Shown piece after piece: positions 34,505-45,773 of a DNA stretch of 64,000 nucleotides. The position numbers were made by a program, and so were the translations under genes. Positions within the stretch are counted from its first letter, which is position 1; each line of letters starts with the position of its first letter. The notes below the pieces were generated by a model. The model had not been told where the DNA came from. It did no database searches and worked only from the letters and a program-made list of their open reading frames with translations. The DNA comes from Bacteroidota bacterium (GTDB lineage Bacteria > Bacteroidota > Bacteroidia > UBA7662 > CANHCV01), in assembly GCA_947501265.1 (NCBI GenBank), contig CANMVY010000001.1:248001-312000 (forward strand). Reading direction: 5' to 3'.

Positions 34505-34563
34505 CTTATTTTTGAAGTTGTGGGTTACCTTTTTAAGAAGAATAGAATTAAGTACGAACCGAT

Positions 34564-35124
34564 ATGTCGCTGAACGACTTAGATGGTTTGAGATCGGGTG
34601 ACCGATTTATTACCGGAAAAATTTACGCCGAGCATTATTCTCTCATCGAGCGGATGATTGTTGCCCAAAAGGGCGACTCCGACGATGCGAAGGATATTTA
34701 TCAAGAAGCGTTTATCATCTTTCTGGATAATATTCAAAATCCGAGTTTTGAACTTACTGTCAAAATCAGCACTTATCTGTATGCGATTGCCAAAAACTTA
34801 TGGTATAAACGTTTGAAAGTAATTGGGCAACAGGGCTTTGTGATTGACGATCGCTTCGCCGATGAATTGCCCGACGTAACGGAAAACGTGGATCGATTTT
34901 TGGAAGAAGAGCAGAAGTACGACGATTTGTATTCGGGTTTGGACCAATTGGGAGAGCCTTGCAAATCGGTTCTTACCGACTTCTTCTTTCAAAAACTAAG
35001 CATGGAGGCGATTGCAAATAAGCACGGTTATACCAATGCCGATAATGCCAAAACACAGAAATATAAGTGTTTGATGCGGTTAAAAAAATTGGTAGCGGTT
35101 GGACAAAAAAGAAGAAACGGATGA
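34564..35124 (+). CDS. ECF-type RNA polymerase sigma-70 factor
   Basis: Region 2-like DAKDIYQEAFIIFLDNIQN and region 4-like LSMEAIANKHGYTNADNAKTQKYKCLMRLKKLV. Confidence 0.88.
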   Translation: MSLNDLDGLRSGDRFITGKIYAEHYSLIERMIVAQKGDSDDAKDIYQEAFIIFLDNIQNPSFELTVKISTYLYAIAKNLWYKRLKVIGQQGFVIDDRFADELPDVTENVDRFLEEEQKYDDLYSGLDQLGEPCKSVLTDFFFQKLSMEAIANKHGYTNADNAKTQKYKCLMRLKKLVAVGQKRRNG

Positions 35125-36146
35125 ACCCATTCAGCGAAGAAATGAACGAGCTATTTGAAAAAATGGCGTCTGGAGAAGGAAGTAGAGCGGAGCGAACCCT
35201 CTTTTTTCAAGAATTAGAGTCCAACCCCACCCTAAAGAATTTGTACGAATCTCATTTGAGTTTTCGGAAGGGCATTGAAGTAGTTACAAGAAGAACAGCA
35301 CTTCGAAGTGAAATTTCAGGTTACCACCAACAGGTCAAAACAACTAAAAGAAAATCTTCCAATCCCATTTCCATTTCTCGTTGGGCTATTGCGGCTTCCG
35401 TTTCTGCCTTAATTGCCGTTGGAGCTTGGTTTGGATACGATTGGGAGCAACGGCAAAAAGCAAATGGCGAGCAATTATTGGCTCGCTCAACCCCTAAATC
35501 TCGGCATTCTAATCATCCCATAAGAACCATCGAGTCGGGAGAAGAAGTGGTTTCAGGAACCGCTTTCGCGGTAAATGCAGAGGGTTATTTCCTTACTTCT
35601 TCCCACGTGATTGGAAATAAATCCGAAGTTGAATTGGAAAATCCGGAAGACGGTAGTATTTATGCCGCTCGAGTTGTTGCGAGAGATACCAAGTACGATT
35701 TGGTTTTGGTGAAAATCGACGACGAGAGTTTCATAGGATTATCGAGAATTCCTTACCCCATCAAATCATCCAAAGTTAATCTAGCTCAAGATGTTTTTAC
35801 ATTGGGGTTCCCCAAAGAGGACATCGTTTTTGGGGAAGGAAGCGTGAGTTCCTTGAACGGTTATAACGGTGATACCTTAAAATATCAAGTTTCGGTACCG
35901 GTAAATCCTGGACAATCTGGATCTCCCTTGTTCGACGAACAAGGAAATGTCATTGGAGTTATTTCAGCAAAAAATGGAAGTGCAGATGGGGTTTCCTATG
36001 CCGTTAAATCTTCCCACATGATTCACTTTTTTGAAAATGCCTTGGAAGATCCCATCCAACTACCGAAATCCAACAGTGTTTCTGGGCTATCAAAAACAAA
36101 GAAGATTCAGAAGATTAAGTCTTTTATTTTTATTGTTCGCGCTTAA
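35121..36146 (+). CDS. Membrane-anchored trypsin-like serine protease with anti-sigma-like cytoplasmic N-terminus
   Basis: ATGA overlap with sigma gene; TM ISRWAIAASVSALIAVGAWFGY; triad candidates SSHVIG, YDLVLVKID, NPGQSGSPL. Confidence 0.82.
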   Translation: MNPFSEEMNELFEKMASGEGSRAERTLFFQELESNPTLKNLYESHLSFRKGIEVVTRRTALRSEISGYHQQVKTTKRKSSNPISISRWAIAASVSALIAVGAWFGYDWEQRQKANGEQLLARSTPKSRHSNHPIRTIESGEEVVSGTAFAVNAEGYFLTSSHVIGNKSEVELENPEDGSIYAARVVARDTKYDLVLVKIDDESFIGLSRIPYPIKSSKVNLAQDVFTLGFPKEDIVFGEGSVSSLNGYNGDTLKYQVSVPVNPGQSGSPLFDEQGNVIGVISAKNGSADGVSYAVKSSHMIHFFENALEDPIQLPKSNSVSGLSKTKKIQKIKSFIFIVRA

Positions 36147-37310: not shown

Positions 37311-37793
37311 TTATTTTTTGTTCATTTTGATGTTGTAGTTCACGTTAGTGGTTTCTGTTCCATCAACATTAATTTGATTGAATTTCCACTCTTGTGCAGA
37401 CTTCTCACTTGAAACAATGGTAAAAGCAGTGTTTTGTGTTGTACCTGTTTTATCCTTGATGGTCATGGATACATCTTTATCGGAATTGTTCCACAAAGTA
37501 ATGTCTCCAGCAAGGGTATCTTTGAAAGTGAAGGTGGTACCGCCGAAAGGAACATCAATATCATAGATTACATTGATTTTACCGGTTGCTGTTTCGCGAT
37601 CCAAAGACATGTCTCCAGTACCGTTTTTAAGCGTTAATGTTTCGGTTTGGCCTTGATCTGTAATAGCAACAGTACCGTTCAAAGAAGCAACTGTCCAATC
37701 ACCGTTCAAAATCTTTTCGGTCTTTTCTTCTTTGTTGCAAGAAGCCAAGCTTACTGATAGTGCAACAGCACCAAATAAAAATACTTTTTTCAT
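37311..37793 (-). CDS. Lipocalin-like hypothetical lipoprotein
   Basis: Lipobox VSLASCNKE; LNGDWTVASLNGTVAITDQGQTETL. Confidence 0.7.
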   Translation of the reverse strand: MKKVFLFGAVALSVSLASCNKEEKTEKILNGDWTVASLNGTVAITDQGQTETLTLKNGTGDMSLDRETATGKINVIYDIDVPFGGTTFTFKDTLAGDITLWNNSDKDVSMTIKDKTGTTQNTAFTIVSSEKSAQEWKFNQINVDGTETTNVNYNIKMNKK

Positions 37794-37795
37794 AA

Positions 37796-38287
37796 TTATG
37801 GTTTTTTAGTTAGTTCAAATTTTGTAACACGCCAAGAGGCAGATTCCCCTAAAACAGACGCAGACACGTTGCTGGAGGTTGCCCAACTTTGAAATTCTTT
37901 TTGATTAACATTCACGTCCCAATTCCAAGTTATTTGTGCAGCACCCGCAGCCGATGTTTTCATGGTTACTTTAACACCTTCAGCATTGGACCAAGAAGTG
38001 ATGGTTGCATCCATGGTATCGCGAACTGGAATTCCAGCGTAACGGAAGATGGTGTACAATTTAAAAGATCCTTTTCCGGTTGTTGCATCGAATTTTACTT
38101 CGCCTCCATCCGAACCTAAATCTACCGAATCGGTACCAAATTGATTGGTAATGATGGCTTTCCCTTCGAATTTGTCGATATTCCAGTTACCATCTAATCG
38201 TTTGTTCAAAGAATTTTCTTTGGAACAACCAACGAAAGCCAAACCCATCGTAAGTGCTAAACCCGTTGTAAATAATAATTTTGTCAT
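37796..38287 (-). CDS. Lipocalin-like hypothetical lipoprotein (apparent paralog of neighbour)
   Basis: Lipobox AFVGCSKE; LDGNWNIDKFEGKAIITNQFGTDSV similar to adjacent gene product. Confidence 0.7.
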   Translation of the reverse strand: MTKLLFTTGLALTMGLAFVGCSKENSLNKRLDGNWNIDKFEGKAIITNQFGTDSVDLGSDGGEVKFDATTGKGSFKLYTIFRYAGIPVRDTMDATITSWSNAEGVKVTMKTSAAGAAQITWNWDVNVNQKEFQSWATSSNVSASVLGESASWRVTKFELTKKP

Positions 38288-44505: not shown

Positions 44506-45773
44506 AGAAACCGCTTCTTCCAATCCTACCTACTTGGCGGTGGATCCTCCTTTTATCAGCCATCTTGGGATTGTTGTCGTTTTTCAATTTAGACTCCACC
44601 CAAATGCAGGGGTTGATTCCCAATTACATCGATTTTGCTCATTTCTTCCGCAGCGGTTTTGATTTGAATTCACCTTTTAGAACGGGGCAAACCACCTTTC
44701 CGATGTGGGGTTACGGGATGATTTTAGCAACGGCTTGGCCGAAGTGGTTGATCATTCTTCTACAACAAGCGGCCAACCTCTTGTTTTTGGTTTGGCTCGA
44801 CAAGCAGTGGTTGGCCTTGGGTTACTCCACAAAAGCCAGAAATACCTTTCGTTGGCTCACCTTTTTCGCTTGGCCGTGGCACCTGATGCATGCCGTTATG
44901 TGGCCGTATTCGATCGGTGCCATCGGCATTTCTGTTGCCGTTTTCTCGCTTTTCCGCTTTTTAAAGGACGGCCATTGGAAATTTGCCATCGCTGCGGGGG
45001 TTGCGTTTGGAATTACCCTTCATTTCCGCAGCGACTACACGATCTTCTTCCTCCTTGTTTCTTCGGGGATTGCCGTTTATTCGTGGTGGAAAACCAAGCG
45101 ATGGATCGGTTTCAGCATTCCAGCCATCGGCCTATTTCTTCTACTCCCGTGGATGCAATACACCCAGCAGCGAACCGGACATCGTTTACTAACTTCTACC
45201 AACGCCGGACACACTTTTTTCTGCGGATTGGGGCAATTGAACAACAACGTTTGGGGAATTACCCCATTCGACGAGGACTCCACCATGCAAGCCATTGCAC
45301 GTCCGTTTGGAGGAACGCTTTCCTATGCCGGCGATTCGATTTTAAAAAAAGCATGGAAAGATTCCGTGTTGGCCCATCCTTTTGAATTCGTTAGAAAAAT
45401 GGGAAGCGTAGCCGTGTTTCGATTAGCGCCTAGGCCGTTCAACGCCGGCGGAATGATGGATCCCGTTTTGGAACAAGCTGCACTACCGAAAAATCCAACG
45501 AGCTACGGGATTCGGTTCTTTTTAACCGTTTTAACCGTTGTTTTTGGGTTCTGTTGGTTTGCTATTGGTTTGATTGCCATCGTGTTTTGGATTTTTCGAA
45601 TCCGCAAAAAAGATTGGGAATGGTTGGGCCTCGGTCTCATTGCTTTTCAAATTGCGTTGGTGCTGGGTGCCATCTTTATGCCGCCCTACCACACCAACAT
45701 TTTTTGGTTCTACGCTTTATTTTTTCTTCATCCTTCGGTAAATTTTTCATTTAAGAATCGAAGAAGAAATTAA
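44502..45773 (+). CDS. Multi-TM membrane protein, possible GT-C glycosyltransferase
   Basis: About ten hydrophobic segments; ATGA overlap with upstream gene. Confidence 0.65.
   Translation: MKKPLLPILPTWRWILLLSAILGLLSFFNLDSTQMQGLIPNYIDFAHFFRSGFDLNSPFRTGQTTFPMWGYGMILATAWPKWLIILLQQAANLLFLVWLDKQWLALGYSTKARNTFRWLTFFAWPWHLMHAVMWPYSIGAIGISVAVFSLFRFLKDGHWKFAIAAGVAFGITLHFRSDYTIFFLLVSSGIAVYSWWKTKRWIGFSIPAIGLFLLLPWMQYTQQRTGHRLLTSTNAGHTFFCGLGQLNNNVWGITPFDEDSTMQAIARPFGGTLSYAGDSILKKAWKDSVLAHPFEFVRKMGSVAVFRLAPRPFNAGGMMDPVLEQAALPKNPTSYGIRFFLTVLTVVFGFCWFAIGLIAIVFWIFRIRKKDWEWLGLGLIAFQIALVLGAIFMPPYHTNIFWFYALFFLHPSVNFSFKNRRRN

Follow-up and report, generated by a model that had tools for sequence, protein, structure and literature searches.

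An ECF sigma factor of a Bacteroidota bacterium is encoded together with a protein that joins an anti-sigma-like N-terminal domain (N-domain), a transmembrane (TM) helix and an HtrA/DegS-like serine protease. We assign a probability of roughly 0.6 to a self-contained envelope-stress circuit, in which the ECF sigma factor is autoregulated and its anti-sigma factor carries its own site-1-type protease. The computational analysis established two genes and a conserved fusion with an intact catalytic triad, whose N-domain has anti-sigma kinship and is linked to sigma genes. It also established that a promoter-like element is conserved at both the sigma and the lipoprotein genes.

Locus and sigma factor

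The window, the whole stretch of 64,000 nt that was analysed, covers positions 248,001–312,000 of the forward strand of contig CANMVY010000001.1 (assembly GCA_947501265.1). Two overlapping plus-strand genes, the sigma gene and then the fusion gene, occupy positions 34564–36146 (Table 1). A previous sequence-only reading of this locus had all main points of the gene description right, including the ATGA overlap (35121–35124). The N-terminus that it quoted, MNELFEKM, is present in the protein, but the probable start lies seven codons further upstream, at ATG 35121. Across genera, no conserved neighbours were found besides sigma and fusion genes, apart from divergent lipoproteins. Downstream of the operon, on the minus strand of the window (37311–38287), are two adjacent related lipoprotein genes for ~160 aa, a paralogous pair according to blastp.

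Table 1. Features of the sigma–fusion operon (window coordinates).
Feature	Position	Strand	Basis or remark
Promoter-like element GGGTTACCTTTTTAAGAAGAATAGAATTAA (GGGTTAC-N16-GAATTAA)	34522..34551	+	12 nt 5' of sigma start codon
Sigma factor ORF, ECF-type	34564..35124	+	186 aa; TIGR02937 above cut-off, Pfam Sigma70_r2
Anti-sigma-like N-domain / TM / HtrA-like protease fusion	35121..36146	+	341 aa
Cytoplasmic N-domain, residues 1–78	35121..35354	+	Helices 6–16, 22–34, 36–78; AlphaFold, hhalign, profile searches
Single TM helix, ~residues 86–107	35376..35441	+	Hydropathy peak 82–107; predicted helix 86–121
Periplasmic linker	35442..35543	+	pLDDT <50 at 117–139; stalk sequences
HtrA/DegS-like serine protease domain, without PDZ	35544..36086	+	Trypsin_2 7.7e-24; Foldseek
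Catalytic H162 codon	35604..35606	+	Invariant 50/50
Catalytic D193 codon	35697..35699	+	Invariant 50/50
Catalytic S266 codon (GQSGSP)	35916..35918	+	Invariant 50/50
Conserved C-terminal helix (325–335) and last strand (336–340), replacing PDZ	36087..36143	+	pLDDT 97, residues 321–340

The ECF assignment of the sigma factor was borne out. The 186-aa protein scores 50.2 bits with NCBIfam TIGR02937 sigma70-ECF over residues 20–175 (cut-off 42.9) and passes Pfam Sigma70_r2 at 3e-9. This places it in group IV of the sigma70 family, the ECF sigma factors, whose only sigma regions are 2 and 4. Region 4 received no Pfam call. The protein carries the family motif GYTNADNAKTQKYKCLMRLKKL in region 4.

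The N-terminal domain

AlphaFold modelled residues 1–60 of the N-domain with a pLDDT of 84–95. An HHpred-type similarity to anti-sigma domains had been set beforehand as a test of the anti-sigma reading, and it was found. In hhalign comparisons with zf-HC2 anti-sigma domains, the profile of the wider N-domain family reached 93.9% / 1.5e-7 and the N-domain profile of the protease-fused family 89.2% / 2.2e-6; the sigma profile, used as negative control, gave 0.2%. In single-sequence Pfam scans of the N-domain, zf-HC2 matches stayed under the cut-off (14.6 vs. 22.2 bits). The zinc motif Hx3Cx2C that defines the ZAS subgroup is absent from the window N-domain and its aligned relatives. Its profile suggests that the N-domain is related to zf-HC2 anti-sigma domains and is itself zinc-free. 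A PDB sequence search with the N-domain profile returned merely helical chance matches, for example protein A and PPAR.

The genomic context follows the N-domain. A sigma gene is located directly upstream in 27 of 27 named fused loci. It is also directly 5' in the other fetched fused loci, with one locus cut by a contig end. None of 17 unfused secreted relatives of the protease is encoded beside a sigma gene. With the N-domain profile, 133 of 295 genomes were found to encode this domain. All 20 non-protease proteins with this domain that were fetched are encoded directly after a sigma gene, and nearly all have a clear TM helix. Their periplasmic parts are cytochrome c, PKD/CHU_C, TonB_C, FGE-sulfatase, TPR-like or unrecognised. 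Since the non-protease partners always follow a sigma gene and proteases lacking the N-domain never do, it is the N-domain and not the protease that tracks the sigma factor. For a single gene pair, co-transcription alone could account for the linkage, as expected for a plain membrane-anchored protease under a neighbouring sigma factor, with the N-domain as scaffold without a role in sigma control. The 20 non-protease loci and the hhalign similarity to anti-sigma domains speak against this reading, which we consider the least probable of all.

Two profile searches connected the window protein to these families. A fused-family profile built without it recovered its N-domain at 1.8e-8. With a profile from the non-protease sigma partners only, it was the sole significant match among the 586 reading frames of the window (1.1e-11, a score that may in part stem from the TM region).

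Class I anti-sigma domains (ASDI) are defined by an N-terminal domain of four helices, three bundled and the fourth after a linker (PMC7406223). Three helices were predicted for the N-domain, and the third (36–78) would be long enough to represent helices 3 and 4 joined. The encoding of an ASDI beside its cognate ECF sigma factor is seen in the 27 fused and 20 non-protease loci. Sequence similarity to known anti-sigma domains is present in the hhalign profiles, with single sequences under the Pfam cut-off. On the computational tests available, the N-domain is very probably an anti-sigma domain.

Sigma and fusion genes share a frame in several relatives, so that a natural read-through chain of sigma factor and N-domain could be folded. 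For the Mucilaginibacter ortholog L072, AlphaFold modelled this chain with its read-through tether at a mean pLDDT of 87.1 and a pTM of 0.81. The N-domain helices had mostly pLDDT values of 92–97. The best PDB matches of the model in Foldseek were the sigma chains of AlgU–MucA complexes; sigmaE–RseA and BldN–RsbN were also listed. The rmsd was ~9–13 Å to sigma chains of anti-sigma complexes versus ~22–24 Å to RNA-polymerase-bound ECF sigma factors. The modelled geometry fits a closed sigma factor bound by an anti-sigma factor. Profile similarity, sigma linkage, domain reuse and this fold support the anti-sigma reading of the N-terminus, and the two genes are very likely a sigma/anti-sigma pair.

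Some class I anti-sigma factors, such as FecR, are required for sigma activity (PMC7406223). A FecR-like pro-sigma function, with the N-domain needed for sigma activity and the pair activating transcription instead of simply inhibiting it, would be compatible with loci L057 and L059 (family f68). Both lost ~40 residues from the start of the N-domain, have no upstream frame for them and yet keep the sigma gene and the promoter. Pfam scans show no FecR-type similarity, however, and the hhalign similarity is to zf-HC2 anti-sigma factors, which makes a pro-sigma function very improbable. The N-domain of L057 and L059 would be a natural minimal anti-sigma domain.

Transmembrane helix, linker and protease

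The one TM helix of the sequence-only reading was confirmed as a hydrophobic helix at ~86–107. Within it, A91-A92 are invariant across the family. The linker of most relatives is a conserved helical heptad-like stalk (LRREIxxIKxSQNxLI). The linker of the window protein is disordered, with the usual coiled stalk degenerate. The linker is variable, and no conserved site for cleavage was recognised in it.

Pfam Trypsin_2 covers residues 146–280 of the fusion protein (7.7e-24). The best PDB matches of the protease domain in Foldseek were HtrA and DegS-deltaPDZ (4e-12 to 5e-12). Like HtrA, the domain has a trypsin-like fold with a His-Asp-Ser triad. The triad proposed from the motifs SSHVIG, YDLVLVKID and GQSGSP corresponds to H162, D193 and S266, which are invariant in 50/50 orthologs, down to ~30% identity. 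Around the nucleophile, the window protein has GQSGSP versus GNSGGP in nearly all relatives (N in 48/50, G in 46/50). HtrA proteins have at least one C-terminal PDZ domain; no PDZ match was obtained for the fusion protein, which ends 46 residues past the Trypsin-matched part. The DegS equivalog model TIGR02038 gave 37.4 bits versus a cut-off of 422.95. At the C-terminal family positions R325, Q328 and V341, each present in 46/50, the window protein has K, K and A. Unfused secreted relatives share the protease and the same C-terminal end. The fusion joined two mobile modules, since the same protease also occurs as secreted, sigma-free proteins.

Distribution and origin of the fusion

A search with a profile of six fused proteins recovered full-length orthologs from ten families, in 58 of the 395 genomes sampled from the class, so the fusion is not a chance event. 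A broad gap in score (1e-80 versus 1e-59) set these orthologs apart from relatives matching the protease part alone. Named carriers include Mucilaginibacter, Pedobacter, Sphingobacterium, Daejeonella, Chitinophaga and Hymenobacter. Within the window's own order, the pair was present only in the two genomes of its genus with the region assembled. The third genome of that genus (G001) lacks the pair, which is uninformative because the preceding gene, radA, is also missing there. In a tree of the protease domains, one branch with 100/99 support separates all fused proteins from the others, and the window protein is the first, long branch among them. This topology indicates a single ancient fusion and no oddity of the window. 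The combination of N-domain, TM helix and protease in one polypeptide, proposed earlier for this locus, is thus genuine.

Promoter-like element and putative targets

The pattern GGGTTACN{13,18}NNATTAA has a single match in the 64-kb window, at the sigma gene (expected 0.02). Two additional GGGTTAC sites, at 44708 and 44819, fall within a coding sequence and were treated as chance. The fixed pattern [GA]GGTTAC-N15/16-G[TA]A[TA][TA]A preceded the sigma gene in 53 of 55 orthologous cases, with an expectation of 0.007 per region derived from the rest of the same loci. The family element is GGGTTAC-N15/16-GTATTAA, from which the window deviates in the -10-like half (GAATTAA, at N16). Almost no matches to the housekeeping Bacteroidota promoter (TTTG/TAnnTTTG) were found 5' of the sigma genes, and no E. 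coli sigma70-type promoters near the operon. In Sphingobacteriaceae (L065–L073), the first possible sigma start codon, a GTG, is located just 2–3 nt past GTATTAA, which suggests that the message is leaderless or that the true start lies further downstream.

An exact search of 395 genomes detected the strict element in 32 of 58 sigma-positive versus 5 of 337 sigma-negative genomes (Fisher 5e-26, a statistic that ignores shared ancestry), with 70 versus 5 sites. This co-occurrence of element and sigma factor suggests that the element is recognised by its own sigma factor.

Besides the sigma genes, the element is mostly located 23–47 nt 5' of small lipoprotein genes, in several bacterial families. 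The encoded proteins have 60–90 aa, with a lipobox followed by a disordered tail rich in D/S/T/K/A and without aromatic residues. The genes are often divergent from the sigma gene and present in two or three tandem copies. Autoregulation of the sigma factor and control of lipoprotein targets are likely. A slightly looser pattern has four sites in the window's genome: the sigma operon, a lipoprotein gene, the tmRNA gene and one within a gene. The lipoprotein gene (L226:1501-1784; G000:C8:17624) has the element GGGTTACCTTTGAGGCCGTTAAGAATAAA 27 nt 5' of the coding sequence for a disordered 76-aa lipoprotein (MKAIRNFAIIATMASFVVACGGKK...APAAH) and is a likely unlinked target in this organism. On the minus strand of L228:1122-1529 (G000:C14:29153), the element GGGTTACCTTTGCAAGGTTTTTGAATAAA ends 12 nt 5' of the tmRNA gene ssrA. 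None of the other inspected matches had the element before a tmRNA, and the site may be chance or a lineage-specific target.

Two of the lipoproteins resemble the PG1828 family (NCBIfam NF050142) in sequence and were not assigned as members. The Sphingobacteriales-type lipoprotein from L065 has 49.2 bits (6e-13) and the Mucilaginibacter-type lipoprotein 38.6 bits, both under the cut-off of 50. The lipoprotein of the window's genome did not match NF050142. In four genomes of family f37 (L229, L231, L232, L234), the element is found before the gene of a 96-aa AMPK1_CBM/CBM48-like protein. In family f43 (L199, L200, L230), it precedes a conserved ~290-aa lipoprotein (CKGGDDKEINPLADSLN...).

Proposed mechanism and comparison with known systems

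In the proposed circuit, a co-translated partner would tether the sigma factor to the inner membrane through a zinc-free anti-sigma domain. This partner would span the membrane once, with the PDZ-less DegS/HtrA-like protease in the periplasm. A misfolded or mislocalised envelope protein would engage the protease, which may then make a site-1 cut in the juxtamembrane linker, either its own or that of an adjacent molecule. Degradation of the inhibitor by an RseP-like site-2 protease and then a cytoplasmic protease would free the sigma factor. Transcription of its own operon could start from GGGTTAC-N15/16-GTATTAA, and small disordered outer-envelope lipoproteins would be activated in trans. These lipoproteins may double as protease substrates that reset the switch. 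We infer sigma binding and sequestration, the RIP cascade, its signal and the lipoprotein role. The window's genome encodes a full-length RseP-type site-2 protease (PF02163, 7.7e-59). The lack of PDZ, the peptide-sensing part of DegS, counts against the circuit, as do GQSGSP in place of GNSGGP, the degenerate stalk of the window protein, the zf-HC2 scores of single members below the Pfam cut-off and the deviating -10-like half of the window element.

Self-cleavage of the fusion protein is a reasonable assumption in view of two precedents: a membrane HtrA removes its own TM anchor by intermolecular autoprocessing, only in the presence of substrate (PMC5359297), and autocleavage of the anti-sigma factor RsgI initiates a RIP cascade (PMC12203970). 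We hold it for possible, at somewhat less than even odds. The more elaborate scheme of RseA and DegS in one protein, with its own site-1 protease, envelope substrates as trigger and disordered lipoproteins as competing substrates that reset the protease, is rather doubtful. An anti-sigma factor without self-cleavage, whose protease domain acts as sensor or quality-control effector, is unlikely to about the same degree or slightly more so. Substrate binding would then alter conformation or oligomeric state and, through the membrane, loosen the anti-sigma domain; alternatively, a separate site-1 protease would cut the linker. In the wider family, the anti-sigma/TM module is also joined to domains that are clearly not proteases, so it has to be capable of signalling with no protease of its own; the variable linker without an identified conserved cleavage site points in the same direction. 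Pure sensing, however, would not require the three catalytic residues that are invariant over 50 proteins to ~30% identity.

The circuit with a built-in site-1 protease resembles the sigmaE/RseA/DegS/RseP system of E. coli in the ECF sigma factor, the single-TM anti-sigma factor, the DegS-like periplasmic protease and a site-2 protease in the genome. In E. coli, RseA and DegS are separate and DegS senses by its PDZ domain, whereas the window has one polypeptide without PDZ. No RseB was seen beside the window pair, and the anti-sigma domain belongs to another sequence group. RsgI and SEAL-domain anti-sigma factors of Clostridium and Bacillus also have the site-1 step built in, and RsgI autocleavage starts RIP (PMC12203970). 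RsgI uses a dedicated autocleavage domain, whereas the fusion has a serine protease with a full triad, in principle able to cut other molecules. HtrAw of Brevibacillus and other self-processing HtrAs share the TM anchor and the HtrA-type protease, and HtrAw removes its own anchor intermolecularly (PMC5359297). HtrAw has a PDZ domain and neither an anti-sigma domain nor a sigma partner; the fusion protein is the reverse. Class I (zf-HC2-type) anti-sigma factors share the N-terminal helical domain, often followed by one TM helix, and the gene position directly after the sigma gene. The window N-domain differs by the lack of the zinc motif, scores below the Pfam cut-off and one long predicted helix in place of helices 3 and 4.

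The individual parts belong to known kinds; apparently new are the way they are combined, how widely this combination occurs, the promoter and the targets. No earlier description of the architecture was found in the open literature, the main ECF reclassification (gkaa1229) lying outside that scope. In the protease-fused version, a single protein would act as inhibitor, stress sensor and site-1 protease, and a promoter and lipoprotein targets are predicted for it. By standard models, class I anti-sigma domains are encoded beside just 6% of Bacteroidetes ECF sigma factors (PMC7406223). The divergent N-domain family, reused on many periplasmic domains, could fill part of this gap and suggests that divergence hid some of the missing Bacteroidota anti-sigma factors. 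Loci L152–L171 represent a wide Bacteroidia family with a sigma gene followed by an anti-sigma-like domain, a TM helix and a variable periplasmic domain, probably a large set of anti-sigma factors so far unrecognised. Upstream of the sigma genes of L154, L158, L162–L164, L166, L168 and L170 is a related element, GGGTnACCTTT ... ATTAA, in which one base is T, G or C. This one-base variation is a possible promoter specificity code between paralogous sigma factors.
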